Origin: a virus
Reading direction: 5' to 3' (one strand)
Length of the DNA stretch: 29,160 bases
IMG/VR virus record: IMGVR_UViG_3300032047_002220
Span: 1 to 29,160 of that record
The position numbers and the translations under genes are program-made. Shown in pieces: positions 3,833 to 24,185 of this stretch (position 1 is its first letter; the number at the start of each line of letters is the position of its first letter). The notes beneath the pieces are model-generated. The model was not told where the DNA came from. It worked only from the letters and a program-made list of their open reading frames with translations, and searched no databases.

Positions 3833-6800
3833 CTATGCTAATATCTTAAACATTTTTCTAACCGACCTTGTACTAAATCCCCACTGAGCATCCCAGTTCA
3901 ATCTAGCCATATAAGGTCTGTTAATATAAATCTTGTCCTTATTGGGGTCCACACCCCAACACTTAATTGTATTTTCTTCCGAATTAGTGTCAATCACTTT
4001 TACCAGATAAAACAGTTTACCATTTTTCGTCTTCTTTTGCAAGACTTCTCTTGGTATAAACCAACAAACTTGCAATTCTTGATCAAACTCCGAAATAGGG
4101 GGTATCATCATTTCATCGAGGCGAGACTGAAGCGCTTCGTCGACAACAGAACTGACAGGGAAAACACCAACCAAATTGACAAGATGTTGTAACTTCTCCG
4201 CCTCAGTGAAATCTCCTTCGGGTTCAAATCGTTCTATGTTTTCAAGCAGGTTCTTCTCCTTTCTTGGGCGTTCGACAGCAACTGCGGACCAAAAGTGCTT
4301 TAATCCCGAAAATCTTTCATCCATGAGGCAGTTAAGTGCCTGACTTAGTGTCAACGCATTAACCGCCTTCTTATTCAGTTTGGAATATACAATATTCTCG
4401 TTAAATAGAAACTCCTCTACCGTACTAAACGGTCTGTTTTCTATGATTTGTGCAATAGCGGTTGACCCCAAACCTTTAATTGACGACAAGGGTTGTATAA
4501 GAGTCTTACCGTCTTTGCTGATCTCCCACCTCACGCCAGACGTGTTAACGTTTAGTGGTTCAATGTTATATCCATATGATTTCGCAACATTGATTGCTCG
4601 CTCCTTTCTCTTGTCCGGTTCCTTATCTAAAAATGCTGCCAACCAGCATTCAGGATAATAGTTAAGAAGATAAGCACACTGATAAGACAGCACGCAATAG
4701 GAAACAGCGTGAGACTTATTGAAACCATATCCAGAAAAATATTCAAACTTTTCCCACAATTCTTTCGCTTCATGTTGCTTCAACCCCCTTTCTATACATC
4801 CTCTACGAAATTTATCGTAGATCTTATCTTTTTCTTGTTGTACGGCACCAGTTCCCTTCTTGGTGAGCAACTTACGTAGTTTGTTACCCTCATCTAGGGA
4901 CAGGTTTTTGCCAAGTTTGTGGGCAAGCATGGCAATCTGTTCCTGAAAGATGAGAAATCCATAAGTTTCAGAGGTTATGTCACGCACCTCTTCACTCAAA
5001 TATTCCACATCTCCCGGATTCTCTTTCGCCCCTATGTACATCTTATCCACACCTGCTGACAGTGGTCCTGGGCGATAGATCGACGTGATTGCCGCTAGGT
5101 CTGTGATGTTGTTTGGTTTAGCGTGCTTACAGAAAGATTGAGCACCACCTTCGGTAAATTGAAAAATACCTGCCCACTTACCTTCATGAAATACATTTTT
5201 CCATACCGCATCGTCCGCCAGGTCAATTCTCTCTGGATGTAAATTGGTCTCATAAAAAGATTTTATGTCCTCAAATGTAGGATTTTCGATATTCTCGTAT
5301 CGCACAAGTATGTGTCTAATTGCATCTTCCATCATTCTCAAAGATGCTAATCCGAGAATGTCAAATTTGATAAAACCCATGGGTTCAAGGTGTCGAACGT
5401 TTTGACCCTCTGACCAAGGGGTTTGTCGTACACCGCCTGAGTTGATAAGAGGCATCCACTCATTCAGGTTCTCCCCAATAACGACGCCACCGGCATGTCT
5501 AGAAGCAGACCTCGTTTGACCATACAGTTTGTTTACATGTGTTTCCACTTCCGGGTACTTTTCCAGAAACTTCTGTAAAGACTCTGAGTATTGCATGAGT
5601 TCTTCAAACGTAGGATTGTACACACCAGCGGTTATACCGTGCGCTTTTTTTGCCAAAGGTGTTGCCTCATAGACCATCTTGTTTGTAACTGCGTTAACCT
5701 CAGAAAACTCTATCTTGTAGAACTTTGAGATATCTTTCACGAGGGATCTAAGTTGCAGTGTATTCCAATTTGTGATAGGCACCACAACGTTATCGCCCCA
5801 TTCTTCGATAAGTTTTTCTTTCAGGACCATCGGGTCGGAAACGTCATAATCGATATCGGGATATCCCGTGCCACCTTTTGTCATAAAACGCTCAAATTGG
5901 AGTCCGTAACGAATCGGATCAATTTGAGTGATACCTAAGGCATAGGCAACCAGAGAACCCGCCGCAGAACCTCTTCCTGGCGCTGTGAGTTGCATTCTCG
6001 TTGCCTCTTCTGCAATCTTCTTCATAGTCAAGAAATACTTGCTAAACCCACGATCCTCAATCACATTGACTTCATATTTAAGTCTCTCTATGTACTCATC
6101 CTTGTCATGAAACCCTTTCTCTTTGGCACCAGCTACGCATAAGACTGCTAATGCTTGACCGGCAGACTGTCCTTCGGGCACAACAAAATCAGGAAGTCGT
6201 ACAGTATTATCTGGCATGAATTCATCTATCAGATCGTGAGCGATGTCGTACGTACTAGTAATCGATTTAAGCACTAAGTCGTCATCGTATTCAACACCCG
6301 CTTCCGCTGAGTACTTCTTGTAACTCTCCCACATTTGTTGTCCATTCTTAGGGTATAGTTCATACCCAATTTCCTCGACATCAATGGGCAGTTCATCACT
6401 TAACCACTCCACCTTTCGACCAAGAAATCCAAGGCGTTTATATAACTCTCTATCCTTCCACGCTTCTGGTGAATAGTAGTGTGAGTCCGCTGTGGAAATC
6501 AATTCGATACCAAACTCATAGTGCATCTGAATGATAAACTGGTTCAGCGTATGCTGTTCTGGAACATTGTTCCATTGCAATTCACCGTACCACCTGCCAC
6601 CAAAGATAGACTGCATCTTCTGCGTTGTCTTGCGCATAGCGTCAAGAACGGCGTCCTCACCATCATCTCGATTTTGCCAATAGTCTCCAGCATACACACC
6701 ACCGAGGCATGCCGACGCTGCTATCACCCCTTCGCTGTGCTTTCTCAGCAAGGCATAATCAATGCGAGGATATCGATAAAAGTTATCACCCGTGTAAGAC

Positions 6801-7264
6801 TTTGATATCATCTTATAGATATTTTGAAGTCCCTTCTGGTTTTGTGCTAAGAGAATCATGTGACTTCTTCTGTTCAGCGCTGACTTCATCTTCTTTTTAG
6901 AAGCTTCGTTCTCCACCGTTGTGCCAGACTGAGCATCCTTCAGTTTTGATCCCCGCTTATTCTTGGTCTCCTCCCTTGCCTTATCGTATTCCTGTTTCCA
7001 GTTAGCAATGCTTGGCACAAAGTATGCTTCACAACCAAAAATCGGTTTAAAGTCACGACCCTCGCTCTTCATCTTCTTTGCGTGTAGTACCTGATATGCC
7101 AAACCATTTGCATTGCCATGATCAGTCAGGGCGAGAGCGTCCATCCCGTTTTCATATGCAAAGTCCATGTGCTGCTGGGGATACCCCAAGGCATCAAATA
7201 TGGATCCCGCAACAGAGTGTGCATGCAACCCAACAAATGGGATCGACGTTTGTACGTCAGTCAT
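3833..7264 (-). CDS. dnaE: DNA polymerase III alpha subunit (C-family replicative polymerase with PHP domain)
   Basis: An 1143-residue polymerase, close to the length of bacterial DnaE. The N-terminal PHP domain (about 10-265) keeps all nine residues expected to bind metals in active PHP domains: His14, His16, Asp48, His49, Glu79, His135, Cys186, Asp260 and His262. The palm has PGRGSAAGSLVAYALG (429-444), PDIDYD (469-474) with Asp470 and Asp472, and KFDILGL (633-639) with Asp635, which together give the three catalytic Asp. The fingers include an SYRPGPL-like segment (SIYRPGPLS) and GYGFNKSHAVSY. A helix-hairpin-helix (SSIKGLGSTAIAQI) and an OB-like C-terminus follow. It replaces the family B polymerase that T4 uses. 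No separate proofreading subunit is seen in the window. ATG start; eight-base overlap with the upstream gene. Confidence 0.97.
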   Translation of the reverse strand: MTDVQTSIPFVGLHAHSVAGSIFDALGYPQQHMDFAYENGMDALALTDHGNANGLAYQVLHAKKMKSEGRDFKPIFGCEAYFVPSIANWKQEYDKAREETKNKRGSKLKDAQSGTTVENEASKKKMKSALNRRSHMILLAQNQKGLQNIYKMISKSYTGDNFYRYPRIDYALLRKHSEGVIAASACLGGVYAGDYWQNRDDGEDAVLDAMRKTTQKMQSIFGGRWYGELQWNNVPEQHTLNQFIIQMHYEFGIELISTADSHYYSPEAWKDRELYKRLGFLGRKVEWLSDELPIDVEEIGYELYPKNGQQMWESYKKYSAEAGVEYDDDLVLKSITSTYDIAHDLIDEFMPDNTVRLPDFVVPEGQSAGQALAVLCVAGAKEKGFHDKDEYIERLKYEVNVIEDRGFSKYFLTMKKIAEEATRMQLTAPGRGSAAGSLVAYALGITQIDPIRYGLQFERFMTKGGTGYPDIDYDVSDPMVLKEKLIEEWGDNVVVPITNWNTLQLRSLVKDISKFYKIEFSEVNAVTNKMVYEATPLAKKAHGITAGVYNPTFEELMQYSESLQKFLEKYPEVETHVNKLYGQTRSASRHAGGVVIGENLNEWMPLINSGGVRQTPWSEGQNVRHLEPMGFIKFDILGLASLRMMEDAIRHILVRYENIENPTFEDIKSFYETNLHPERIDLADDAVWKNVFHEGKWAGIFQFTEGGAQSFCKHAKPNNITDLAAITSIYRPGPLSAGVDKMYIGAKENPGDVEYLSEEVRDITSETYGFLIFQEQIAMLAHKLGKNLSLDEGNKLRKLLTKKGTGAVQQEKDKIYDKFRRGCIERGLKQHEAKELWEKFEYFSGYGFNKSHAVSYCVLSYQCAYLLNYYPECWLAAFLDKEPDKRKERAINVAKSYGYNIEPLNVNTSGVRWEISKDGKTLIQPLSSIKGLGSTAIAQIIENRPFSTVEEFLFNENIVYSKLNKKAVNALTLSQALNCLMDERFSGLKHFWSAVAVERPRKEKNLLENIERFEPEGDFTEAEKLQHLVNLVGVFPVSSVVDEALQSRLDEMMIPPISEFDQELQVCWFIPREVLQKKTKNGKLFYLVKVIDTNSEENTIKCWGVDPNKDKIYINRPYMARLNWDAQWGFSTRSVRKMFKILA

Positions 7265-8075: not shown

Positions 8076-8772
8076 AATACTTTACCCTCTCCGTACTTTC
8101 ATAAACAACCTCTTCCATTGGCATGACAACCCGCTCCTGCACAACCGGTTTTGGTTTGCGTGGACCACGGGAAGGCGATATCAGAGGTCTGATCAACCCA
8201 CTCTCATTTAGCAGCGATTTCTCTACATATATCCTAGACATAGTATCAGAATAGTCAAAGCTAGTCAACTGCTCTTTCGATAAAAAAGAAATACTAACAA
8301 TCTTTTTCTTCCCGTAAAACCTCACCTCCTCAATAAAGGATTCAGGTATCCTAATGTCTTTCATTTTCTCAACGTTACAGAAAGGCAGTTTCATCATGTC
8401 AAGCACACGAAACACGCCCACATTGTCTCGGCGTTTTATGTCCAGATTCGTATTTATCGAATCGGACGGAAAGAGATGACACATATCAAAGGTCGCCTCA
8501 GAGCGTCCAAACCGAACAGTGTCATCCTCTATACGTACAGAGAATGGTTCCTCCGGGTTGACAACTAACCCTTTCATGGATATTAAAAATCTTAAAAAAC
8601 TCCACGCATCTGACACTGTGTGGAATTCCTGCCCCTCTATTTCCAGGGGAGGTTCTAACCTGTCGATGAAACTTGGAGGACTGAACTTGGTTAGCACAAT
8701 CTTTGTGCCGTCGCAATAACTTTTGATTAATGCGTATAAACAATGACCAACAATTAATCTATTGAATGTCAA
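8014..8772 (-). CDS. Conserved phage protein of unknown function, TTG start
   Basis: I do not recognise a known domain in this 252-residue protein. The N-terminus MTFNRLIVGHCLYALIKSY is hydrophobic and looks like the first strand and helix of a Rossmann-like fold, but the glycine pattern is poor. WSFLRFLISMKG (about 57-68) and FSVRIEDD are segments I recall from unnamed marine-phage proteins that lie near the nucleotidyltransferase-like gene. The last 50 residues are basic and proline-containing and probably flexible. No ATG is available: an in-frame stop lies just upstream. The start must be TTG, either at 8770-8772, where TTGA overlaps the lipoprotein stop, or two codons earlier at 8776-8778. 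No good ribosome binding site is seen, so it probably depends on translational coupling. Confidence 0.65.
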   Translation of the reverse strand: MTFNRLIVGHCLYALIKSYCDGTKIVLTKFSPPSFIDRLEPPLEIEGQEFHTVSDAWSFLRFLISMKGLVVNPEEPFSVRIEDDTVRFGRSEATFDMCHLFPSDSINTNLDIKRRDNVGVFRVLDMMKLPFCNVEKMKDIRIPESFIEEVRFYGKKKIVSISFLSKEQLTSFDYSDTMSRIYVEKSLLNESGLIRPLISPSRGPRKPKPVVQERVVMPMEEVVYESTERVKYYEHHDRGIILKTYRRNHTNI

Positions 8773-10841
8773 TAGCAAACACCGTTCGCATAGTCATACC
8801 GTTTGCTGTGGGACACTAGAGCAAAAGGACTCGATAAATAATCGTTCATGCCCATCTGCACTTCGGCGCCTGCACATATATCATCGATTATGCTCATCAG
8901 ATCATTGTACATTCTTTGTTGATTTCTCGAAAGTTCAAAAACAAATCCGCCTGTTGGATTAGCGTATACTTCCCACCTATTAGAATACAGTCCTTCTGAA
9001 AAAACATATAACTTCAAATTCGGTGTAGCAGTCAACATATCCAACAGTTGTTGATTTGTCACATTCGGTGACAAATACGTCTGCTCCTCCTCATCAGTAA
9101 AGAGTATGATTATTCGATCAGCGTTAGGGCGCCAATTTAATACGAACCTATCAAGTTCTGGTTCTGATCCTATTGAAGGCAGGGACCACGCTGCACGCCT
9201 TCGGTCGTAAGAAGGGTTGCCTGTTATGTTATAGATCGCCAACATCAAAGCATCCTTCATCATCTCCTTGCTCGTGCCGCCAAACTCTCCAGCGTTTGCA
9301 AGTTCAATCAGGAATTGTTCGAACTCTGATATGTTAGCATTTAGAATCAGCATTTCCTTTGACGTGCCGCCGAACATTTGGGTTGGATGTTCTTTCGGGC
9401 CAATTACCAAACCCCATTTTATATTGTCCTCTGCAGAAAAGTGTTGTGCGAAGCGGTTCAGTGCTGCACTCACCGCTCTAATATAATCTTCCATTGATCC
9501 AGACCAGTCAATTATAAATAAGATATCTGTGTCTGGTATCTCTTCCCCATAGTCTGTTATTCCATCACAGTCATTATCTGACCCATCACAAACTTCTTCT
9601 GTTGGTAAAACCTCACCAGAACAAAAGTCTACAAGAACATTGCCCTCATTGTCCTGCGCTGCCCACTGCCCTCTGTCACAGTATTGCTGTCCATTGGTGC
9701 AGACACCTATACCAACCGTTTCTGCTGGTCCTGAATAGCAGTCCCTGAATAGGTCCTCGTCTATTACCGTGTCACAGTCTTCATCAAAGTCGTTACAAAC
9801 CTCTGGATTGATAGGTAGTCCAACAAGCGGGTCGCACTCCTGATCTGGGACCTGGATTTCTTCGAACCAGTGACAAGGAGCAAAGCACTCTGACATACTT
9901 GTCACGGTGCACTCCTCATCTTCACACTCACATGTCTTAAATCCCAATCCGCACGACAAGGGTGGTTCCATGCAAGGTATCAGGGCGCCTACTATCTCCG
10001 GCGGGCACTCACAACTCACACCCTCATCAATAAGTTGATCGCAATCATTGTCTTGTCCATCACACTGCTCTACGGACGGTTGCCGAGCAGTACAACTAAC
10101 CCACTGACCAGACTGGCAGGTCTCTATCCCCCTGTTGCAGGCAGTACTGCACTCACGAACCAACTCTTCGTCGACGATATCATCACAGTCGTTGTCAAGA
10201 CCGTCACACATATCCTGAGGGACATCACCACAACCGTTACAGACGTTTCTTTTGTTCTCATCTGTATTGCCATCGCAGTCGTTATCTACAAAATCACAAA
10301 TCTCATCTGATACAACACAAGTTATACACTCCCCATAATACAACCTACCTTTATCACACTTGACTTCTTGAGTTCCACTAACTCCATCCACCTCGCAGTC
10401 GTAAATAAGTACAAACTCTTCGTTGATACCCGGAGGACAATCAAACGCATGTTGACATGCTGACTCGTAAATTATTTCAGCGGGTGGACAATCAAGGTCA
10501 ATGTTCCTGTCGCAAGGTACCAGATCTTCACCACAAATATCTAGGACGGCTGTCTTTGCCTGGATTTCAGTACCAAGCGGTGGGCAATACCAGGTCTGCC
10601 GCTGACAACAACGAGGAAAACACTCACAATAGTCTTCGTCTATGTTCCGAACGTCGGCGCAGGGGTCGACATAAGCGTCGACGGTGATGTCTGGGATTTC
10701 TATAATTTGCACATCTGGAGACAAAAGGTCTACACTTATGCCTACCTGGAGATCCCTCACCTCTCCTTGCTGTGGGACGGAATCAGCACAACTAGCAACC
10801 GTCAGTAACAGTATCGTAAACTTGCTTAACTTTCTTAACAT
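8769..10841 (-). CDS. Secreted Cys-rich lipoprotein with five MopE-like metal-binding repeats and a VWA domain
   Basis: A 690-residue protein unlike any standard phage gene. Residues 1-17 form a signal peptide (basic start, ILLLTVAS) ending in the lipobox VASC, so Cys18 should be lipidated and the protein anchored in a bacterial membrane. Residues 60-425 hold about 45 cysteines. Five acidic repeats of the form CDGxDNDCDGxxDE lie at about 180-196, 210-226, 258-274, 347-363 and 416-432. They resemble the putative metal-binding motif of MopE proteins and also fit a DxDxDGxxD calcium loop. A von Willebrand factor A domain follows (438-655), with MIDAS residues DWSGS (445-449), a Thr in GGTSKEM (493 or 523) and Asp583 in LFTDEEE. 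ATG start with a modest AAAAGG; 50-base overlap with the transglycosylase gene. It probably binds metal and a surface ligand; the role is unknown. Confidence 0.85.
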   Translation of the reverse strand: MLRKLSKFTILLLTVASCADSVPQQGEVRDLQVGISVDLLSPDVQIIEIPDITVDAYVDPCADVRNIDEDYCECFPRCCQRQTWYCPPLGTEIQAKTAVLDICGEDLVPCDRNIDLDCPPAEIIYESACQHAFDCPPGINEEFVLIYDCEVDGVSGTQEVKCDKGRLYYGECITCVVSDEICDFVDNDCDGNTDENKRNVCNGCGDVPQDMCDGLDNDCDDIVDEELVRECSTACNRGIETCQSGQWVSCTARQPSVEQCDGQDNDCDQLIDEGVSCECPPEIVGALIPCMEPPLSCGLGFKTCECEDEECTVTSMSECFAPCHWFEEIQVPDQECDPLVGLPINPEVCNDFDEDCDTVIDEDLFRDCYSGPAETVGIGVCTNGQQYCDRGQWAAQDNEGNVLVDFCSGEVLPTEEVCDGSDNDCDGITDYGEEIPDTDILFIIDWSGSMEDYIRAVSAALNRFAQHFSAEDNIKWGLVIGPKEHPTQMFGGTSKEMLILNANISEFEQFLIELANAGEFGGTSKEMMKDALMLAIYNITGNPSYDRRRAAWSLPSIGSEPELDRFVLNWRPNADRIIILFTDEEEQTYLSPNVTNQQLLDMLTATPNLKLYVFSEGLYSNRWEVYANPTGGFVFELSRNQQRMYNDLMSIIDDICAGAEVQMGMNDYLSSPFALVSHSKRYDYANGVCY
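9546..10304 (-). repeat. Region encoding five degenerate CDGxDNDCDGxxDE protein repeats
   Basis: Within the lipoprotein gene this stretch encodes five copies of an acidic, paired-Cys motif. The cores read DNDCDG, DNDCDD, DNDCDQ, DEDCDT and DNDCDG. Spacing between copies ranges from 30 to 89 residues, so this is a set of dispersed domain repeats rather than a tandem DNA repeat. The last copy abuts the VWA domain. The second to fourth copies have lost the Gly of the calcium-loop pattern, which may alter metal choice. Confidence 0.8.
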
Positions 10842-11690: not shown

Positions 11691-12394
11691 TACTTCTTTT
11701 CCATTTTGCATTTAATGTATGATTCCACTGAGTGTGGAAAGTGCCTTCTAACTATGTCCAAGCACGCTTTGGCGACTTGCTGTATCTCCCACTGCGCACC
11801 CTCATGAACTCGCAATGAAATGAATTTAAGAAGGTTGTGCAAATTTACAGTGCCATAATACTGAGTGTAAAGGTTTTGCGGCAGGACCCCCCTAGCTTGC
11901 TCTCTGCACACCCCAGAATCAACCAATGCATTGTATAACGATACACTGTTGGTATTGTGCTTCGCAACAGCATTTGAGGCGGTCTCAAACCCACTGGCAA
12001 GATATGCAGAGTCCAAAGTAGGGTTGATCAAATCATCACTACTTGCTTGACGATTTGACTTATGTTGCGTCCTGAACTCGCTCGGAGAATAGAACTTCAT
12101 ATCCACACTAGTATATCGTCTACTAATCTCATTATATGCCCAAGTACGATGTCTGTGGTGCTGACTACGTATAAAGAGAGGCACTGTGAACCTAAGTGTG
12201 ATAGCACAGTGCTCAAAAGGAGAACTGTGATTATGTTCCATGAGGTAGTTGATAAGTTTAACATCTTTGTCATCTACTTCTTTCTTTTCTGATCCGAAAG
12301 AGACCCTTGCCGCATTAACGACCGACAAATCAGTACCCATATGCGAAATGTATTCCACCGCACCGTATCCATCACCAAACAATTCTACCTTCAT
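11690..12394 (-). CDS. thyX: Flavin-dependent thymidylate synthase ThyX
   Basis: A 234-residue ThyX, which makes dTMP from dUMP using FAD, NADPH and methylene-tetrahydrofolate. The signature RHRTWAYNEISRRY (81-94) fits RHRxxSxNExSxRY, except that the first Ser is Ala; the Ser at 91 is present. The FAD/dUMP site residues HNHSSPFEH (54-62) and a C-terminal RVHEGAQWEIQ block are also typical. Start at ATG 12394 (TGATG junction with the GroES-like gene); a GTG one codon upstream is possible. With dUTPase, thymidine kinase and class II RNR in the same window, it lets the phage make dTTP independently of host ThyA. Confidence 0.97.
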   Translation of the reverse strand: MKVELFGDGYGAVEYISHMGTDLSVVNAARVSFGSEKKEVDDKDVKLINYLMEHNHSSPFEHCAITLRFTVPLFIRSQHHRHRTWAYNEISRRYTSVDMKFYSPSEFRTQHKSNRQASSDDLINPTLDSAYLASGFETASNAVAKHNTNSVSLYNALVDSGVCREQARGVLPQNLYTQYYGTVNLHNLLKFISLRVHEGAQWEIQQVAKACLDIVRRHFPHSVESYIKCKMEKK

Positions 12395-12705
12395 CACGGT
12401 CCTCTATATATGCCCAACACATAATTTTCCAATATAACGTAATGCTTCCTATTATCGACGTCAATCTCTTCGATCATCGTCTTGTCGATAACAATCTCAC
12501 TTTGAGGATTCCTTCCATATTTCAACTTTCGCAAATCCTCCTTACAATCACTCGCAACATTGACAACTGTTGCCTTGATGTATCTCGCTTCTTCCTTTTT
12601 AAAGTCATCTGGCAACAGTACGCCTGAATCTGTCTCGTCTTTTTCAAAATGCGGAACAATAGATACATACCTGTTAATTGGTTTGAATATTCTTATCTTA
12701 CTCAT
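12394..12705 (-). CDS. GroES-like co-chaperonin (gp31-type)
   Basis: A 103-residue protein with the plan of GroES. The N-terminal strand FKPINRYVSIVPHFEK (7-22) matches the RPLxDRVLVKP start. A GVLLPDDF segment (28-35) occupies the place of the mobile loop that docks on GroEL. The C-terminus HYVILENYVLGIY (88-100) matches EYLILREDDILAV. T4 gp31 replaces host GroES so that the major capsid protein fits under the chaperonin lid; a similar job is inferred here. ATG start inside the upstream gene with an eight-base overlap; ribosome binding site weak, so translation is likely coupled. The chief alternative, a structural beta-barrel protein, is less likely given both ends match. Confidence 0.8.
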   Translation of the reverse strand: MSKIRIFKPINRYVSIVPHFEKDETDSGVLLPDDFKKEEARYIKATVVNVASDCKEDLRKLKYGRNPQSEIVIDKTMIEEIDVDNRKHYVILENYVLGIYRGP

Positions 12706-13035: not shown

Positions 13036-14898
13036 TTATACAAATTTGACTTCACAAGCACCTCCGGCGCAAGCGACTTCACCCTTTAGATCCGTGTTGT
13101 CCTCTTCTTCTGTAATCTTTGTGAGGTCCACTTTTTTAAGAGAATTAAGCATCACTTCATATGTCTCTTTGGAACAGTCCTCGAATGGTGCCTGTGTGTA
13201 TGTTCCTCCGTCGTAAGGCAATACTGAAAGTCCGTTATAACTCTCTCTGTTTTCCCACATCCACTCGCCTACGTCGACCCATTCAGCATCCCTAATGGAC
13301 ACCGTTGCCGAGATGTTGTGAGTGTTTTGACCTTTTCGAAACCCCGGTTTTACCCAACCGTCAGTCACCGATTTAACTCTTCGAAGAAGTTGAAGAGCGG
13401 ATTCTGTTCTCAAGATTGAACCCTCCGGTGCGCTTTGAGGTATAGATATAACGGCGGTGCTGTGTGGACTGAAATATTCATCTTCGACCAACTCCGGGTG
13501 ATTTTTCTCTAGATAAGAGTAGATCGGTTCATTCTTTCCCACACGGATTCTGCGGATATAGTAATCCGAATGCCAAGCATGAATACCCGAAGAAGTTCCA
13601 AGGGCGAGACTGGTTGTTCCTGCTGGTTTGACGCAAGTGGTGCGTGCGGCAGGTTTGATACCAATTAATTCTGCCACCCTTGTATTCTCTTTTTTAACTG
13701 CTTCTGCTGCAGACTTCATATCCAAATCCATAACAGCGCCTGATGCAATACCTGTCATAGACACGCCAATCAGGGCGTCCTTCTCGGTGGTTCTGCGCCA
13801 GATATCACGAAGATAATGAAAGTCCGTATAACTTGCTTGAAGCGTCCCAATGAAAGTAGCAGCTTTCACCCTCTCCTCATAATCTTCCTGCGATTCTAGA
13901 TCGGAAACGTTAACCTCAGTGAGATTACAAAACTGATATGGTCGCAACCCTATCTCACAACAAGGGTTTGTGCCCCAGTCTTTGTCGTTCGAAAAATAAA
14001 ATCCAGGTTCTCCGGCGCCCGAAGCTTTTACTCGTTCCCACAATCCCATAAAATATTCTCTGTCAATCTTGTGACGAAGAAGCACCACAGAGTTATTTGC
14101 TCTGCCTCTTTGGGGGTTAGTTTCCCACCAGTTTCCCGTCTTTGCTGCTATCATATCCTCATCATCTGCTGAAAATAAAGATATTAGTGCCGCTCTTCTA
14201 ATTCCGCCAGCAAGAACAGCGTCTGCAATGTGGCAAACCATGTCGTGTACTTCGATTGTAGATAGTTTGTCTCCATTCTCCTTCTCCGACAGCATGCCTT
14301 CTAGTTTAACCAAACACTCCCTGAGGGGTTGTGGTCCGGGCGCTTTGCCGCCAGACGTTACGAGCGCTGCCCCTTTGGGTCTGATGTCTGTAAAGTCAAA
14401 CCTTAATTTAGACCCACCCAAGAAGTAACTTCTCACCAAAGCTTTGACTGCATCTGCCCAACCCTCGATCGAGTCGTTTATCAAAAATCGGCGGGTGCGG
14501 TTAGCGTTTGGTTTCTGTATCTCTGGCAAGGATTCCACGTGATGCTTCTGCACACTATATCCAACTCCAGTGCCGCCCAACAACAAAAACATTGCTTCAC
14601 CGAAGGTTCTCCAATCATTGATTGGCATAAACGCACAGTTAAAAATCCTGTTCGGTGCAACCTCAATAGGTTTACCTCCGAATTGTAAAGATCTCATCGA
14701 AGGCAAAACCTTCTTGTCATAAACTAATTTATAGTTCTTTCTTATTTGCAATTCTAGCTCTGGAAATTTCTTTAAATGCATTTGCATATTCCTTGTAACC
14801 AAATCTTCCCAGGTCTCTCTCCTACTCTTCTCCGGTAGGTACTTTGCGTACTTCATGTGCACTGTTATTTCTGACAAAATATCATTTGATAAACTCAT
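13036..14898 (-). CDS. nrdJ: Class II (adenosylcobalamin-dependent) ribonucleotide reductase
   Basis: A 620-residue reductase that makes deoxynucleotides from ribonucleotides via a cobalamin-generated thiyl radical. The key residues can be placed: Cys88 (NCAFMP) pairs with Cys324 (QFCNLTE) as the active-site reducing pair; Cys313 in NPCCEI is the thiyl radical site with Glu315 beside it. The 11-residue spacing from 313 to 324 equals that of the Lactobacillus leichmannii enzyme (408 to 419). A C-terminal CAGGAC (Cys610, Cys615) is the shuttle pair. LLLGGTGVGYSVQ (105-117) and KPAGTTSLALG (424-434) are further signatures. It works without an NrdB partner and without oxygen, but needs B12. An extra Cys follows the radical Cys. 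ATG start; TAATG overlap with the helicase and a strong GGAGGAAG. Confidence 0.95.
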   Translation of the reverse strand: MSLSNDILSEITVHMKYAKYLPEKSRRETWEDLVTRNMQMHLKKFPELELQIRKNYKLVYDKKVLPSMRSLQFGGKPIEVAPNRIFNCAFMPINDWRTFGEAMFLLLGGTGVGYSVQKHHVESLPEIQKPNANRTRRFLINDSIEGWADAVKALVRSYFLGGSKLRFDFTDIRPKGAALVTSGGKAPGPQPLRECLVKLEGMLSEKENGDKLSTIEVHDMVCHIADAVLAGGIRRAALISLFSADDEDMIAAKTGNWWETNPQRGRANNSVVLLRHKIDREYFMGLWERVKASGAGEPGFYFSNDKDWGTNPCCEIGLRPYQFCNLTEVNVSDLESQEDYEERVKAATFIGTLQASYTDFHYLRDIWRRTTEKDALIGVSMTGIASGAVMDLDMKSAAEAVKKENTRVAELIGIKPAARTTCVKPAGTTSLALGTSSGIHAWHSDYYIRRIRVGKNEPIYSYLEKNHPELVEDEYFSPHSTAVISIPQSAPEGSILRTESALQLLRRVKSVTDGWVKPGFRKGQNTHNISATVSIRDAEWVDVGEWMWENRESYNGLSVLPYDGGTYTQAPFEDCSKETYEVMLNSLKKVDLTKITEEEDNTDLKGEVACAGGACEVKFV

Positions 14899-16277
14899 TA
14901 ACTACTTCCTCCTTTAAACTTGTCGTATTTTTCTTTAAGCACTTCCTTCTGTCTTTTTGCGGCATTCTTTACCACATCTTCCATCTCTTCACTTGTCAAA
15001 ACCTTAGGCAAAACCTTTATGTTGACGTTAGAGGTATCCATAAATATAGGGTAAATGAGTCCATCGGGCCCATTTCTGTTCTTCGCAATGAAAATTCTTC
15101 CACTGTTCACGGATTTGTCGTCAATGGTTCTTGAAACAGAAAAGATAAAATCAGCAACAAAACACTTATTGAATGCTTCAGATATCGCCTCCATTGTTAT
15201 AACTTCAGCGTTCAATCCAGAGCGATTAGTCTGTGATGCGGTCCAAAGTGGACATTTGGATTCTTGAGATATGCCTCTGAGTTCTTCATATATCGACTCC
15301 AACTGGTGGCGCTTCTCTTCCTTTGATGACCCCTCTGGTTTTAGTAAGTCCGCATAATCAACAATAATGAGGTCCGGTACAAAATCTTGGTTTCTCATTT
15401 TCTCTATGTGATTTTTTATAGTTTGTATGCTCGCAGATCGGGTAGGATACTCCTTCACTATTAACTTTCCTGGTACATCCTGAAGTTTGTCGTAGATCTG
15501 CTCTTTAAAAACTGTGATTTCGTTAAGGTGATATCCAGTTATGCAACTGTCGTACCTATTCGCCACGACGGTATCCGCTAACTCCAAAGTATAGTGCACC
15601 ACATTTTTCCCATTCAGCAAGGCATGAGCGCCGAGATGAACAAGCACCATTGATTTACCTGCGCCTGTTGGTGCGATGACAACGCCGAGTTCACCTTTGC
15701 CTAGACCACCCTTCGTTATGTCATCCAGTGGTTGCCACCCTGTAGTGACGGGGTTTCTCGCTTTCTTCTCGAATCTTCTTTCAAAGTCTGCCATATAGTC
15801 GTACCCCAAGTCATTTGAGGTGCCCATCTTCAATGCATCGTTAATTACTTTCGCAACCTCGTCGAAAGAAGATTTTTGCAAAAGTGGAACTGACTTTATC
15901 ATCGCTTCTTGTAACTTCTGCTTTTTACAGAAGTCCAAGGCAGTGTCCTTAATGTATCCAGACTCCTTAAGATCGATCTCTTGAGACAGGACCCTAGCGT
16001 AATAGTCTCTTAGCATCTTTTTCACTGAATCCTGCTCATTGAGCAAGTCAGTCCTCAAGATACTGGTCATTATCTTTCTGGTTGGGTGTATGCTGTATTT
16101 CTTTTTATACTGCTTTATTTTAGTCACGAAGACACGTAAATAAGAGAGTTCTAAAAAGTTTATATCTAAAACTTCAAAGATCTGATCTGCGAACGGGCGA
16201 TCGTCCAAAATTAGGTGACATAAACTTTCCTGAAAACTTTTTCCAAATTTTGAAAAGTCTCTCTTAATTTGTTCCAT
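14898..16277 (-). CDS. Replicative DNA helicase (DnaB / T4 gp41-like)
   Basis: A 459-residue hexameric 5'-3' helicase for the replication fork. Residues 1-150 form the N-terminal helical domain. The RecA-like motor follows: Walker A APTGAGKS (202-209), YTLEL with Glu231 (229-233), Walker B DLIIVDYADLL (302-312), the sensor segment TASQTNRSG (346-354) and an IAKNRNGPDG arginine-finger region near residue 410. DnaB and gp41 share all of these. In this phage it would work with the C-family polymerase rather than with a T4-type one. No primase is seen in the window. The ATG shares a base with the exonuclease stop (TAATG), so exonuclease, helicase and RNR are one run of coupled genes. Confidence 0.95.
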   Translation of the reverse strand: MEQIKRDFSKFGKSFQESLCHLILDDRPFADQIFEVLDINFLELSYLRVFVTKIKQYKKKYSIHPTRKIMTSILRTDLLNEQDSVKKMLRDYYARVLSQEIDLKESGYIKDTALDFCKKQKLQEAMIKSVPLLQKSSFDEVAKVINDALKMGTSNDLGYDYMADFERRFEKKARNPVTTGWQPLDDITKGGLGKGELGVVIAPTGAGKSMVLVHLGAHALLNGKNVVHYTLELADTVVANRYDSCITGYHLNEITVFKEQIYDKLQDVPGKLIVKEYPTRSASIQTIKNHIEKMRNQDFVPDLIIVDYADLLKPEGSSKEEKRHQLESIYEELRGISQESKCPLWTASQTNRSGLNAEVITMEAISEAFNKCFVADFIFSVSRTIDDKSVNSGRIFIAKNRNGPDGLIYPIFMDTSNVNIKVLPKVLTSEEMEDVVKNAAKRQKEVLKEKYDKFKGGSS

Positions 16278-17245
16278 TAACTAAAACCTACCCAAGAATT
16301 CGTCATTGAATTAAACGTGGTCGACAAGTGACCCAAGTTCAACGTTGTCTGCCCATCCACTGACAACATTTTATTAACCTCTGTCTTGTTGTACAAAGGA
16401 GAATATTCTTCAAACCTTTGCTCAATCCTGTTAGCACACTGGATGGATATGAGTGGTGTGCTTAACTGCATTATGGAGTAATTATTACATACTTTAGCAT
16501 ATTCTTCAAGAACTTTCTCATAAATTGACAAACCCGATTCTGTCGATTCTGAATGTTGCTTGACATCTTGTAACAAATAGTCCTTATCTTCGGCCAAAAA
16601 CGGAAATGCTTTCGCCACAGTCTTGAGTCCGACGCCATGAATACCATCAAGATTATCACTCTTATCACCGACCATCGATCTTGCGAGTGCAAAATTCCTA
16701 GGATGAATCTTGTGCTCCTCAAGCACCCTATTCCTATTTAGAACCTCTCCTTGTGTTGGTCTCATCAGCACCGTCTTTTCATCCAGCAGTTGGATAAAGT
16801 CCTTATCGCTAGAAATTATAACCTTATTATAATCCTCGAATGTTTGCATTGATTTTACGTATGATATGACATCATCCGCTTCGACGCCGGGTTCTCGAAA
16901 TTGAATTATCGGCGTCTGATTCAAGTATTCAATAAGTCGAACCTGCTGATATATCTGATTAGTTCTTAGTTGGTCAGCAGACATACTGCTACCCCACCTG
17001 TTCAATTTGGGCGGTTTACGACCTGCCTTGTAGTTTTTATTTTTCTTCTTTCTCTTGTTTGATCCACCTTCACCATCCCACACCACCACGAGGACATCTG
17101 GGGATATCATCCTACAAAACTTGTTCATACTTTGCAGAAAACCTACTACACCGCCGCAAGGATCTCCATGGGGTGTCAAAGTTGGATTAACAATATACGA
17201 CCTCATAAACTGATTTTGTCCGTCGACGAGCATTATTCTTTTCAC
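16277..17245 (-). CDS. 5'-3' exonuclease / flap endonuclease (T4 RNase H-like), GTG start
   Basis: A 322-residue FEN-type nuclease, expected to remove RNA primers and 5' flaps from Okazaki fragments. The acidic metal site is complete: Asp8 (LVDGQN), Asp57 (VVWDGEG), Glu122-Asp124-Asp125 (VEADDV), Asp147 and Asp149 (SSDKDF), Asp194 and Asp197 (GDKSDN). The helix-hairpin-helix GIHGVGLKTVAKAF (201-214) binds the duplex. A Lys/Arg-rich stretch (64-80) is the helical arch. The start is GTG at 17243-17245, set by AAGGAAG six bases upstream. It sits immediately after the terminator behind recA, with no clear promoter between, so it is probably expressed by read-through. Confidence 0.93.
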   Translation of the reverse strand: MKRIMLVDGQNQFMRSYIVNPTLTPHGDPCGGVVGFLQSMNKFCRMISPDVLVVVWDGEGGSNKRKKKNKNYKAGRKPPKLNRWGSSMSADQLRTNQIYQQVRLIEYLNQTPIIQFREPGVEADDVISYVKSMQTFEDYNKVIISSDKDFIQLLDEKTVLMRPTQGEVLNRNRVLEEHKIHPRNFALARSMVGDKSDNLDGIHGVGLKTVAKAFPFLAEDKDYLLQDVKQHSESTESGLSIYEKVLEEYAKVCNNYSIMQLSTPLISIQCANRIEQRFEEYSPLYNKTEVNKMLSVDGQTTLNLGHLSTTFNSMTNSWVGFS

Positions 17246-17297: not shown

Positions 17298-18443
17298 TTA
17301 AGCATCAGTCTGTGGTGGGACTTCTTCCTGGTCATAAAAGTCAGATGCTTTGCCTGACTTGTTACTGAACTTCATGATAACATCTTCGTCCATCATCTGC
17401 AAGACTCTCTTATGAAACTTTTCGTCTTCCAATTTCTTTAACCAGTGCGCACGTTGAAACTTCTCTTCTGACCCATCTTCGTGCACTAATGCATACCAGG
17501 CGCCGGATTGCTTTAGGTTTTCAGAAATTTGAATAGCATCAAACCAACTCTCCTTGTCTTGAACTCCAACCTCGTCCGAGTCGCCCCAGAGAATTTTAAA
17601 GTTACACATTCTACCTGTCGAACCAAAGCGAGATTTTTCTATCTTGCACTTTACCTCGGACCCAATCCTGAACCCGTTCTCATCTGTCACAAACGAAGCT
17701 TTTGCCTTTCTTCCCGTTAACCATATCCTTAAGGAATAAGAATAAGGCAACGTTTTGCCACCCGGTGTCATGTATGGTGTCGTAAGCGCTTCCGATGGAG
17801 ACCTTGTTATATTGGTCTTCAATTGATTGAGAACCAGCAGTGTTGCGCCTGCGTTGGCAATTGGTTGCACCAACTTTGGCATACCTTTTGAGAGCACTCT
17901 CGCTTTCATCGCCATTGATGATTGCGGGTTGTAGTCTGACTCGATATCATGCTCTGAAGGTGTCAGCGCTAGAGAATCCCATATGAACAACCACTTCTCT
18001 GGTAGTTTTAATAGATTTTCTATTGTCTCCATGACCATTTCGACAGAGTGCGCTTGAATATAAATCAAACCACTCTCTTCATCATCAAGTTCGCATCCTG
18101 CTCTTCTCAAAAAGTCTGGATCGATTGCTGATTCAGAGTCAAAATAAGCGACACGACAACCCATCTTTTGAGCATTCGCTGCAACCTGGGCCGCCATGAA
18201 TGATTTGCCCGTCGCCTCAAGTCCCGCTATCTCAGATATTTTACCAATAGGTATACCTGCATATCTACCCTTGCAAGTAATTGAGTCCAACCAGCGAGAA
18301 CCAGTTGGAATCCACTCCTTAACTTGAGTAGGGTTTTCCTCCCCCAAATTATAAGCCACAGTTTCACCTGCAGACTTATTCAGGGAGGCGATGATATCCT
18401 TTGTGGATAGAGCACCGGACTTTAGTTTTGTTACTTTTGCCAT
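17298..18443 (-). CDS. RecA/UvsX-like recombinase
   Basis: A 381-residue strand-exchange protein for recombination-dependent replication and repair. Walker A is GLEATGKS (74-81). The catalytic Glu104 is in FDSESAID (101-108), matching DAEHALD of RecA. Walker B is LFIWDSLAL (152-160) with Asp156. The L2 region and DNA contact follow in LLVLNQLKTNI (202-212), and PGGKTLPYSYSLRIWL (227-242) is the subunit interface. The C-terminal 60 residues are charged and end in an acidic tail. The reading frame is open further upstream, but the ATG at 18441-18443 is chosen because the frame before it lies over the SSB gene and it begins one base after that gene's stop. It is coexpressed with SSB from the 31-base promoter. 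Confidence 0.95.
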   Translation of the reverse strand: MAKVTKLKSGALSTKDIIASLNKSAGETVAYNLGEENPTQVKEWIPTGSRWLDSITCKGRYAGIPIGKISEIAGLEATGKSFMAAQVAANAQKMGCRVAYFDSESAIDPDFLRRAGCELDDEESGLIYIQAHSVEMVMETIENLLKLPEKWLFIWDSLALTPSEHDIESDYNPQSSMAMKARVLSKGMPKLVQPIANAGATLLVLNQLKTNITRSPSEALTTPYMTPGGKTLPYSYSLRIWLTGRKAKASFVTDENGFRIGSEVKCKIEKSRFGSTGRMCNFKILWGDSDEVGVQDKESWFDAIQISENLKQSGAWYALVHEDGSEEKFQRAHWLKKLEDEKFHKRVLQMMDEDVIMKFSNKSGKASDFYDQEEVPPQTDA

Positions 18444-18444
18444 A

Positions 18445-19212
18445 CTACCCCAACAACTCATTAAACGCCGCAGTGACCTGATCTTGGTCGCTAGAGGTCG
18501 TAGAAGTTGTACTGTTACCACCGCCGCCGCCACGAGTCACTTCACGGTCTGGAGTTTCGCCAGAAAGGTGTGAGTCAAGAATCGCTCGAACTTCATCTGT
18601 GGACTTACGGTCGAAGAGAGTGTCAAACTTAGGTACAGTTTCAAGCAACTCAGCACATCGCTCGTCTCCACCAACTGCGTCGTCACAAAGTGCAGACTTT
18701 CGAGGTCGTGGTCGAATATCAGTAGTCGGATAAGAGGCGCCAGGTTGCTTACCATACATCAACTTAAGATCGTTGCCATCCTCAGGGTCGGTAATATCGC
18801 CATAGTCAGGATCCAATACGATGCCGAGCAGTTTTTGATATGCCAACTTGCCATATCCCCACACCTTTACACCCTCGGATTCTTCGCCACGAACAAGCAC
18901 TGGGGAGAAGAATCTTTGTTTTGCAAACATGCCCTTAGCCAGGTTCTTACTGTCATCCGTACCTTCATTCCACAACTCGTTTGCAAAATTACAAACAGGA
19001 CAATCATCTCCATAATTTCGCTTAGGGCAGAGAAAGGATTGTTCTCCAACTCCATAGTGGAAGAACTTTTCCTTGAATGGGTCACCATCCGCAGTCGGAA
19101 CAATTCGAATGTTGTTCTCTCCGTCTTGAGGTCTCCAGAAGTTATTCTTCTTTCCACCCTTGTCTGTTAAAGAAGCCATCTTTTGCTTCATGAGATCTAA
19201 ATTCAGTGCCAT
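18445..19212 (-). CDS. Single-stranded DNA-binding protein (T4 gp32-like, zinc-containing)
   Basis: A 255-residue gp32-type SSB that coats single strands and loads partners at the fork. The zinc site is visible: His52 (FFHYG), Cys62, Cys71 and Cys74 (LCPKRNYGDDCPVC), as in T4 gp32, where His and three Cys bind one Zn2+. The N-terminus is basic (MKQKM...KGGKKNN), as in the cooperativity domain that binds the neighbouring protomer. Residues 225-255 are a Gly/Ser/Thr linker followed by a tail ending FNELLG, which is likely the partner-docking tip. The start is the ATG at 19210-19212 behind AGGAGGT; an upstream ATG would add 11 residues but lacks a site. It has its own promoter and a leader with a hairpin. 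Confidence 0.93.
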   Translation of the reverse strand: MALNLDLMKQKMASLTDKGGKKNNFWRPQDGENNIRIVPTADGDPFKEKFFHYGVGEQSFLCPKRNYGDDCPVCNFANELWNEGTDDSKNLAKGMFAKQRFFSPVLVRGEESEGVKVWGYGKLAYQKLLGIVLDPDYGDITDPEDGNDLKLMYGKQPGASYPTTDIRPRPRKSALCDDAVGGDERCAELLETVPKFDTLFDRKSTDEVRAILDSHLSGETPDREVTRGGGGGNSTTSTTSSDQDQVTAAFNELLG

Positions 19213-19291
19213 TTTATTACCTCCTATGGTATTGTTTTTTTGCACACTTTCGGCTATAGCAGGTCAGCAAATCTTCTGACCAACTTTCTAT
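19213..19291 (-). promoter_or_regulatory. Leader of the SSB gene with a hairpin, possible translational operator
   Basis: From the promoter to the ATG is a leader of about 75 bases, long for this phage. It holds a hairpin of GGTCAG pairing with CTGACC around an eight-base loop (19262-19281), a GCTATAGC palindrome (19253-19260) and an A-rich unstructured stretch just before the ribosome binding site. T4 gene 32 is controlled by its own product through a 5' pseudoknot and an unstructured leader; the layout here is similar. A pseudoknot is not proven. Confidence 0.45.
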
Positions 19292-21110: not shown

Positions 21111-21947
21111 TTAAAATTCTTGTACTTTTGAAGAGTATGACTTTACGTAACAAAAGTCTGATTCGTATTGAGTCTCATAGACTCCGTAACTGTACTTACA
21201 AAGTTCAGTGTTCTTGCTTTTTATTAATTCTATAATGTTTCTTTGTAGTTTTTTATCATTATTTAAACTCTCTTTGGATATGCCATAGTAGAGTCTTGAC
21301 TCCATGGTATCCTGCATGGGAAAGAAGAGAGTCTCCTCTCCACTCTTCATATCTAGAATTCCCAAAGTGCATATCCTACGAGCTTCATTAACTTCAGATA
21401 AATTACCAACCACGCAGTCCTGATGTTCGAAAACCATCACCATATGAAATACAGAAGAAATCAATTCGTTTATTGTTGGGTAGTATTCTTTGATGCTCGC
21501 ATCTTCAACAAGAGTATCCATTTTTGCATTGCTTGTCAAGAAAATATCTTTAAATAATCCAGAACGTGTATACTCCTGCAATACAGAAAAAACCATCCTT
21601 TCCTGCATCACTTTCCTCTCTTCTAGCAGATCGTGTTCAGGGCGGACGCAAAGAATAGTGACACTCCTATCTTTAAGTTGGTGCAGCATCTTGAGGGATA
21701 TTGCACAAACAGTGCTGGCGCCACTCAAGACCAGTATAACATCACTCTTAATCTTGTCTTTGACCTTTTTGGGGATTACCTTGAAGTTGGATTCATAATC
21801 CTCAGATGTCTTTTCTTTTTTAATCACAAATTGATCATCCCAGCTTGAATCTTGATCATCCACACAAACAACGTTATATTGATCATATATCTGAAACTTT
21901 TTTGCAATTCGGCAACCGACAGTACCGAGACCTATAACTGTATACAC
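21111..21947 (-). CDS. Conserved phage protein with Rossmann-like N-terminus, function unknown
   Basis: This 278-residue protein starts with MYTVIGLGTVGCRIAKKF, a strand-glycine loop-helix as in dinucleotide- or nucleotide-binding folds. VVCVDDQD (26-33) is a second strand with acidic end, and SDVILVLSGASTVCAISLKM (68-87) a fourth strand and helix. From memory, closely similar proteins, with the segment VLQEYTRSGLFKD (122-134) nearly unchanged, occur in many T4-like cyanophages and other marine phages, always unnamed. A distant tubulin/FtsZ or dehydrogenase-like fold is possible, but the tubulin signature GGGTGSG is absent. It begins with GTG, whose G is shared with the stop of the polymerase gene (TAGTG). 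It sits between polymerase and thymidine kinase genes. Confidence 0.75.
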   Translation of the reverse strand: MYTVIGLGTVGCRIAKKFQIYDQYNVVCVDDQDSSWDDQFVIKKEKTSEDYESNFKVIPKKVKDKIKSDVILVLSGASTVCAISLKMLHQLKDRSVTILCVRPEHDLLEERKVMQERMVFSVLQEYTRSGLFKDIFLTSNAKMDTLVEDASIKEYYPTINELISSVFHMVMVFEHQDCVVGNLSEVNEARRICTLGILDMKSGEETLFFPMQDTMESRLYYGISKESLNNDKKLQRNIIELIKSKNTELCKYSYGVYETQYESDFCYVKSYSSKVQEF

Positions 21948-23065
21948 TAAACTTCTCTCATTTCCCCAAAATTATTGCCTATAGAAGCATTGACTCTATA
22001 TTGCCCAAACCTAGTGCACCCAAAAATACTCTTTGCGTCCAAAAATTTGTTAACATCTTCCTTTGCAAAATCTAGTATAACAGAATCATGCAACAAATAA
22101 CAAATTTTTGTTCTAGAATCTTTAAAAAAATCTCTCAACTTATAAGACTGTTCAATACACACATCGCTACTGGTACTCTGTACGATATAGTTTAGTGCTC
22201 GGCGGTCGTCTGTTTGAATATTGCGAAAAAAGGGGGTTTTAACGCTTCCATTCTCGTAGTACTGACTCTTGACTCGGTCTCTGTTATAAATGCCCTCTAG
22301 CAGCGGATCTGACGCCTTAGGATTGTATAACCACGCAAACGTTCTCTTTTTCACTTCTTCTCTGGTTGTGGACTTCGTCGCAACGTGCGAAAGGTTCCAT
22401 TCATGAATATCCTCAAGTGGTTGCTCCCTGTCTGATAGTGCAAGTAACGTTCTTAGTTCAGCAGCGTTGAAATCAAATTCTACAAACAAGTCGTTTACAG
22501 GAGTCAGGTGCGCTCTCTCTTCCTTCTTCATCGTCAAGATAGGTATTGATGATTTAGCGTTCGAAAGGCGACCTGTTCGTGTGCTGAAAATGTCATAATT
22601 TGTATTACTCCACTTCCCTTTGTATAGATTCTTAGAGGAGTTCATCTCCTCTGTCAATATGTGTGCTTTCTTGAGTATTTCATAATGCGGTGGTCGTGAG
22701 ACTGATTCGAACGTATGCTGGATTATTGCATGCCTGCTTTTCAAATACTTTTGCAAAATACTATCAGGTACATAATCATAGATACATGAGTTCTCTATAT
22801 CACACCGTGCATTATGTATAGATTTGACTATAGAGGATACCCTGGTGGATATTTCTTGCCACTGCTCTGTCATATATCCGGGACACACCGAATGTATGTC
22901 GCCGTTCGCATATATGTATGCATACTCCACATCTGGACGATCAGATAAGTGCGTGGAATGCTTCCATGTCTTGATTAGACCCGCACAGTTTTCATAGTCT
23001 ACTAGACTTGACCCATTGTATGTTTTTTTGCATCTCTGACTGTTGTCAACTATTTGAAAGTACAT
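21947..23065 (-). CDS. Minimal family A (Pol I-like) DNA polymerase
   Basis: A 372-residue protein with the palm and fingers of DNA polymerase I. Motif A is DFNAAELR (198-205): Asp198 is the first metal ligand and Glu203 the steric-gate Glu. The O-helix has Arg235, Lys239, Phe243 and Tyr247, with the exact four-residue spacing of Arg754, Lys758, Phe762 and Tyr766 of E. coli Pol I. TRTGRLSN (162-169) and NYIVQSTSSDV (292-302) match conserved family segments. Motif C is LHDS (325-328): the catalytic Asp327 is kept, but the usual Glu is Ser. There is no 3'-5' or 5'-3' exonuclease domain; the first 150 residues are unassigned, and the thumb must be small. It may fill gaps or bypass lesions. ATG start, one-base gap after the structural gene. 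Confidence 0.85.
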   Translation of the reverse strand: MYFQIVDNSQRCKKTYNGSSLVDYENCAGLIKTWKHSTHLSDRPDVEYAYIYANGDIHSVCPGYMTEQWQEISTRVSSIVKSIHNARCDIENSCIYDYVPDSILQKYLKSRHAIIQHTFESVSRPPHYEILKKAHILTEEMNSSKNLYKGKWSNTNYDIFSTRTGRLSNAKSSIPILTMKKEERAHLTPVNDLFVEFDFNAAELRTLLALSDREQPLEDIHEWNLSHVATKSTTREEVKKRTFAWLYNPKASDPLLEGIYNRDRVKSQYYENGSVKTPFFRNIQTDDRRALNYIVQSTSSDVCIEQSYKLRDFFKDSRTKICYLLHDSVILDFAKEDVNKFLDAKSIFGCTRFGQYRVNASIGNNFGEMREV

Positions 23066-23066
23066 T

Positions 23067-24185
23067 TTACCTATACTTGCTTTTGTTCATTCCTGAATTT
23101 AAATTTAATTTTGAAGATGCGTAATCATGCATGCTCTCAAAATTGTACTCACTATAAAGATAGTAACAGTCTTCCATAATCGAGTCAAGTAAAATCTTTG
23201 GAACTTTTTTCTTAGACTCAATAACAAGGATCGAGAGATAAAGCGATATCCAATTTCGTTTTTTATAACGAACTGAGGGATTTGTCTCTACTGGTGGCAT
23301 TTCCCTCATTATGCTTCTTAGACTATCGTTCTTGCACGCTTCCACTATCCTTCGTGTGCTCGTAAGATCAATAAACTTTGTATAGTTTGACACCAACGCA
23401 CTCTTTAAGTGATCTATGTCGTACCTTCGACACTCTATATAGTAAGAACTCATCAACTCAGACTTTTCGAATACATCATATTCAACAGCATATCCGTGCA
23501 TTATATCAGAATTCAAATTTGCCATCAAGCACCATGGTGCATATTTTGGAACAACAAATCCATACTTTCTCGCAAGGGATACAAATCCATCCAGATCTAC
23601 CAAAGCGGACGTCTCGATCTTTTTCTCCATGTCGTCATGCTTAATCTCCGCAAGTTCTATCAATAATCCCGAACAGTGCGGTGGGCATAAGGTAGACCTA
23701 ACAAAGGCAGAAAAAGTTATGGGGACGCCATACTGCAATTCGGCATACTTGACAAACCTGTGCACAAACTCGTCAAACGTCTTAATCTTGGACGCATCAT
23801 CATCCATATCCAGATCGTGATATAAAAAAGATACGAACATTTCGTCGATATATTCACGGTACAGAGTTCTAGGGTCTTCATACGCTTTTACTGGTTTGAG
23901 ATTGCTAGAATCGGATTTTCCAAACGTTTCCATCCCTAACTCGAAATACTTTCTATTCAAATCTCGAAATGCATCGGCGACAAAGTCCAATGCATAGACT
24001 GTCGTATCGTCTGGCGTCAACTGCTTGTACGGTTGGTTGGATAATGGAATAACACTTTGGTTATCCGAATTAACTCTTCCATAAAGAATTTGGGTGGGGT
24101 CCAGATTATCAAATACTACATCCTCGTCATATTCAGCGGCGTATGAAACATAATTGTCGAATTTGCTTTTTGTACTCACTCCCAT
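23067..24185 (-). CDS. Conserved marine-phage protein, probably virion-associated
   Basis: A 372-residue acidic protein without a catalytic motif. Recognisable blocks are VYALDFVADAFRDL (63-76), a helical FDEFVHRF segment (138-145), then CPPHCSGLLIELAEIKHDD and YGFVVPKYAPWCLMANLNSD. From memory, this chain of blocks is kept in structural proteins of many T4-like marine phages, where the protein precedes or follows tail and neck genes; its exact place in the virion is unknown. Two starts compete: ATG at 24183-24185, only two bases after AGGAGG, and GTG two codons later, which has a better eight-base spacing. It follows the hub-like gene after six bases and leads into the polymerase gene. Confidence 0.72.
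   Translation of the reverse strand: MGVSTKSKFDNYVSYAAEYDEDVVFDNLDPTQILYGRVNSDNQSVIPLSNQPYKQLTPDDTTVYALDFVADAFRDLNRKYFELGMETFGKSDSSNLKPVKAYEDPRTLYREYIDEMFVSFLYHDLDMDDDASKIKTFDEFVHRFVKYAELQYGVPITFSAFVRSTLCPPHCSGLLIELAEIKHDDMEKKIETSALVDLDGFVSLARKYGFVVPKYAPWCLMANLNSDIMHGYAVEYDVFEKSELMSSYYIECRRYDIDHLKSALVSNYTKFIDLTSTRRIVEACKNDSLRSIMREMPPVETNPSVRYKKRNWISLYLSILVIESKKKVPKILLDSIMEDCYYLYSEYNFESMHDYASSKLNLNSGMNKSKYR

Follow-up and report, generated by a model that had tools for sequence, protein, structure and literature searches.

The window, that is, the whole stretch of DNA that was analysed, is a virus record of 29,160 bases classed as linear, and it is probably part of a larger genome. It encodes, from an ATG start, a 372-aa family A DNA polymerase, together with a number of further replication proteins:

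3833–7264, minus strand: family C (DnaE-type) replicase with PHP domain, 1143 aa (PF07733, E 5.9e-51; PF17657, PF02811, PF14579; phrog_405)
14898–16277, minus strand: DnaB-like replicative helicase (PF03796, E 2.8e-19)
16277–17245, minus strand: FEN-type 5′-3′ exonuclease, the proposed partner of the mini polymerase (PF02739, E 5e-27)
17298–18533, minus strand: UvsX/RecA-like recombinase (phrog_97, E 3.1e-61)
18445–19245, minus strand: gp32-like single-strand DNA-binding protein (SSB), a member of the cassette (PF08804, E 2.4e-14, with 18445–19200 as query)
21111–21947, minus strand: downstream conserved neighbour with a nucleotide-binding-like N-terminus (88 of 95 loci; TrkA_N, E 0.04)
21947–23065, minus strand: mini family A DNA polymerase, putatively divPolA1-type (PF00476, hhalign to Klenow, AlphaFold model)
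23067–24185, minus strand: upstream conserved neighbour, a separate gene (82 of 95 loci) and not a missing polymerase domain

A search of IMG/VR with the 372-aa protein gave 16 relatives, and one with the family alignment confirmed at least 583 related stretches, the best 80 of which were retained as relative loci; the conservation counts given below cover 81 distinct family sequences, the neighbourhood counts 95 relative loci. In the relatives the genes follow each other on one strand in the order gp53-like baseplate, 23067 family, mini polymerase, 21111 family, gp32-like SSB, UvsX, FEN, DnaB and NrdJ. A search of a phage collection returned no close cultured relative, only distant matches of about 20–28% identity and partial coverage; Rhodothermus phage RM378 was considered as a relative and rejected, as the family profile gave no match there.

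The 372-aa protein matches PF00476 (DNA_pol_A) with an E-value of 4.5e-11, exceeding the gathering score, and the same Pfam search found no match to a 3′-5′ exonuclease domain, which bears out the first-pass annotation in its reading of the gene as a second, small and exonuclease-free family A polymerase. The protein is indeed small next to the Klenow fragment to which it had been compared, with the caveat that the latter retains its exonuclease domain. Alignment of the 81-sequence family profile to Klenow by hhalign (E 5.9e-10, residues 154–367) pairs R166 with R668, D198 with D705, E203 with E710 and R205 with R712, R235, K239, F243 and Y247 with R754, K758, F762 and Y766 of the O-helix, and N292, Q296, H326, D327 and S328 with N845, Q849, H881, D882 and E883. 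Thus, motifs A, B and C are present with the two metal-binding Asp, the O-helix Arg/Lys/Phe/Tyr stand in the register claimed for them, and a Ser does replace the Glu following the motif C Asp. The equivalents of D705, E710, R712, R668, R754, K758, Y766, Q849, H881 and D882 are invariant in 81/81 sequences; that of F762 is Phe in 79 and Leu in two, that of N845 is Asn in 79 of the 81, and that of R841 is not conserved among them.

The residue after the D882 equivalent is Ser in 68, Glu in eight and Asn in five of the 81 distinct sequences, and these states require four changes on the tree. As Ser is the majority state, it is a family trait rather than a local defect; what had been presented as a special change of this phage is the commonest condition in the family, and in a branch of phage polymerases comprising at least 583 IMG/VR stretches it is a stable evolved state. 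Ser328 is probably tolerated since both metal-binding Asp are retained. Purifying selection acts on the polymerase family, with dN/dS of 0.04–0.23 in 22 close pairs (80–98% identity); because the window's own dS is saturated, selection was measured in relatives only and the evidence applies at the level of the family. The protein might nevertheless be a catalytically dead relic with a structural or regulatory role, its loss of activity marked by Ser328, and the departure of motif C from HDE as well as the small size would fit such a loss. This is very unlikely: the other catalytic residues are nearly all invariant, dN/dS lies well below 1, and Glu and Asn occur in the same position with only the few changes mentioned. 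The loss-of-function option raised at first is thus contradicted by the conservation and the dN/dS values of the family, and the gene is probably functional.

The AlphaFold model of the protein (pLDDT 80.7, pTM 0.78) is of low confidence around the tip of the thumb, where residues 148–173 have a pLDDT under 50. The top PDB matches found by Foldseek are family A polymerases with a modest TM-score (0.47 on the query), and VIA-align superimposes 331 residues on KlenTaq with a Z of 21.9 and an rmsd of 4.5 Å. Structure prediction and superposition, the check proposed in the first-pass annotation, therefore point to a family A fold with palm, fingers and thumb, the thumb tip being uncertain; aligned with most relatives, the protein shows a 20-residue gap. 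The N-terminus aligns structurally within the vestigial exonuclease domain of Taq and Bst, residue 1 falling at Taq 306, and the first ~60 residues may be an eroded exonuclease remnant. One residue near the N-terminus, Asp7, is the same in all 81 sequences despite the loss of the exonuclease; it may be a leftover of that domain or have taken on a new role. Measured between the O-helix Tyr and the NxxxQ Asn (N845), the fingers are 45 residues long in the window protein, as against 79 in Klenow and 56 and 55 in the proteins of immuto and Mel-JY01; the comparison does not extend to Oceanotoga, AppleCloud, Misomonster and the full PolA of immuto. While the protein resembles Klenow, KlenTaq and the Bst large fragment in palm, O-helix, catalytic residues and overall fold, it differs from them in having no working exonuclease, about 34 fewer finger residues than Klenow, Ser in place of E883 and an unconserved R841 position. 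The nearest engineered counterpart is HoLaMa, an exonuclease-free Klenow sub-fragment of 47 kDa, which folds and is able to extend primers, its efficiency being 10-fold lower (PMC6457538), and which makes activity of the mini polymerase plausible; both consist of a polymerase part of similar size, but HoLaMa has Klenow's own fingers and motif C. As a small, naturally occurring enzyme, the window protein lends itself to the question of what a family A polymerase can do without.

The small size could also mean that a full-length PolA has been split or frameshifted, with the missing domains encoded in 23067–24185, a region which the first-pass annotation had itself named as the place to look and which is adjacent to the polymerase gene, on the same strand and of equal length. 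This explanation can practically be discarded. In uncut relatives the polymerase occupies an open frame of its own, about 370–464 aa long; the product of 23067–24185 belongs to a separate family without any Pfam or PHROG match and without a match to a polymerase or exonuclease, its predicted fold showing a weak likeness to VanXY/VanY-type peptidases (E 9e-4, TM 0.43–0.44 on the target); and PF01612 was found in only one of 13 records, within the full-length PolA of immuto. The gene 21947–23065 is neither broken nor split. On the other side of it, the N-terminus of the 21111–21947 product (IGLGTVGCRIA) looks nucleotide-binding, with TrkA_N as the only Pfam match; its LSGAST stretch presumably recalls FtsZ/tubulin-like proteins. 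Neither a 21111 nor a 23067 relative was detected beside the polymerases of Mel-JY01 and immuto, and both genes may therefore be specific to the branch of the window.

An extra PolA of this kind was named divPolA1 by Yutin et al. in 2024, in 14 phages of the immuto group (PMC11348598). These phages have a regular polymerase of family A, B or C besides, and the replication genes downstream of divPolA1 are fixed; the protein has an intact palm, a truncated thumb and an inactivated exonuclease (PMC11348598). A profile made from the proteins of Flavobacterium phage immuto, Microcystis phage Mel-JY01 and the 484-kb phage record LR756508.1 scored the window protein at 64.6 bits and canonical PolAs at 21.6 at most. 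Two trees separate the window family together with these three from canonical PolAs (support 100/99 and 99/96), albeit on long branches; the second was built without T7 and the grouping was unchanged. The named member compared in these tests was immuto; MK892584, LR796625 and MK892766 were left out. The protein further shares with divPolA1 that it is extra to a regular polymerase (the DnaE at 3833–7264), that the replication genes downstream keep their order and that the catalytic residues of the palm are retained; the exonuclease appears inactivated, as there is no family match and the N-terminus is too short for the domain, aligning only inside it. Genomes with divPolA1 are 155–190 kb in size; the window record, a probable fragment, is 29,160 bases and the records of relatives reach 203,859. 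Going by these comparisons, the window protein is best regarded as a member of the already described divPolA1, a kind of polymerase known since 2024. Within this group it differs from the immuto protein in length (372 versus 441 aa) and finger length as given above, and in keeping the motif A Glu and the motif C His where immuto has His and YDA, respectively. A literature search on immuto and Mel-JY01 yielded nothing relevant.

In family A polymerases, E710 is the steric gate and D705 and D882 are metal ligands; the invariance of the steric-gate Glu (E203) implies that dNTPs are favoured. This bears on the idea that the protein could have evolved from family A into an RNA polymerase or an enzyme that makes primers. 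In favour of it, family A palms have been co-opted as T7-type RNA polymerases. Such a function has also been raised for divPolA2 (PMC11348598). With E203 unchanged in all 81 sequences and DNA polymerases making up all of the top structural matches listed, this idea is exceedingly improbable. The divPolA2 of barbaviruses is likewise an extra divergent PolA without exonuclease, but it has no homologous thumb, a globular N-terminal domain of its own taking the thumb's place, and is found in variable neighbourhoods (PMC11348598); it is set apart here by this description, the neighbourhood of the window family being fixed.

As to the main replicase, the first-pass annotation was right that a family C enzyme is co-encoded; the gene at 3833–7264 has PHP, DNA_pol3_alpha, finger and HHH domains. 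Besides the window, eight relative records contain DnaE; where a relative lacks it, the record is incomplete, and nothing can be concluded from the lack. Records with a family C enzyme yielded no second PolA. Immuto encodes, besides its 441-aa relative of the mini polymerase, a full-length PolA and gave no DnaE match; Mel-JY01 combines its relative with a family B polymerase, and LR756508.1 contains, besides its divPolA1 relative, a fragmented family B polymerase and a 575-aa frame with a DnaE-like match. The mini polymerase is hence independent of the replicase family, the main replicase being C, A or B in different phages. It could be argued that the mini polymerase itself is the main replicase (for one strand) and that the family C enzyme is the auxiliary one, since the former is located in the replication cassette, whereas in divPolA1 phages the regular polymerases have functionally mixed surroundings (PMC11348598). 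However, this appears unlikely for an enzyme without proofreading and with reduced fingers, of which immuto-type members have lost yet more (His for Glu in motif A, YDA in motif C), and which is encoded together with a DnaE having PHP, NTPase, finger and HHH domains.

That the protein is an accessory DNA polymerase belonging to divPolA1, catalytically competent but without proofreading, is, in our view, very probable. What it does is suggested by the genes SSB-UvsX-FEN-DnaB, which lie downstream of the polymerase not only in the window and its relatives but also in immuto, Mel-JY01 and LR756508; of 13 records, 11 have FEN, and in the two lacking it the polymerase is near a contig end. The mini polymerase might supply the polymerase activity of a “Pol I in two pieces”, whose other half would be the FEN nuclease encoded apart from it. 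In this scheme FEN takes away RNA primers or flaps, short gaps on the SSB-coated lagging strand are filled by the mini polymerase, and long high-fidelity synthesis would be left to the family C enzyme. PF01068 and PF01653 detected no DNA ligase in the 13 records, so that nicks would have to be sealed by a host enzyme or an undetected ligase. In favour of this role are the invariant catalytic set, the purifying selection, the fixed linkage to FEN, SSB, UvsX and DnaB and the varying replicase; against it count the unconserved R841 position, the lack of a detected ligase and the low-confidence thumb tip, and that host Pol I could do the same job. Further, SSB and UvsX are closer to the polymerase than FEN, which would fit recombination equally well. 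Identity and gap-filling or primer-replacement role together are given about an even chance of being correct.

The main rival is a polymerase coupled to recombination or repair, which would extend the 3′ end in UvsX-made D-loops or bypass lesions in recombination-dependent replication. In most loci the first replication genes that can be recognised downstream are those for the gp32-like SSB and UvsX, and an enzyme that has lost proofreading and has shortened fingers would be suited to short or tolerant synthesis; against this, FEN and DnaB are part of the same cassette, and the steric gate and nucleotide-binding residues are those of an ordinary family A enzyme. Such a polymerase is possible without being probable. 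Returning to gap filling with FEN, it is tentatively proposed that mini polymerase, SSB, UvsX, FEN and DnaB form a self-contained “Pol I in two pieces” maturation module, kept while the replicase swaps among families A, B and C, and that the branch of the window is its most compact active form. With the window protein, the question posed by divPolA1, why phages with a replicase of their own keep a second polymerase, becomes testable.

Two further genes of the window deserve mention. Between the DnaE gene and the cassette, a GroES-like chaperonin is encoded (12394–12705, minus strand; PF00166, E 4.3e-7), a position in agreement with the chaperonin genes reported near the regular polymerases of divPolA1 phages. 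The gene at 8769–10841 (minus strand) encodes a 690-aa protein with a lipoprotein-like start, repeated CDGxDNDCDG and, by eye, a von Willebrand A-like part, which is unusual in a replication region. Outside of virus records, the run 23067-polymerase-21111-SSB-UvsX is found in the chromosome of a WOR-3 bacterium MAG (CP070664.1, 2242049–2263236), with other genes around it and a run of N adjoining; this locus is either a chimera or an integrated phage.
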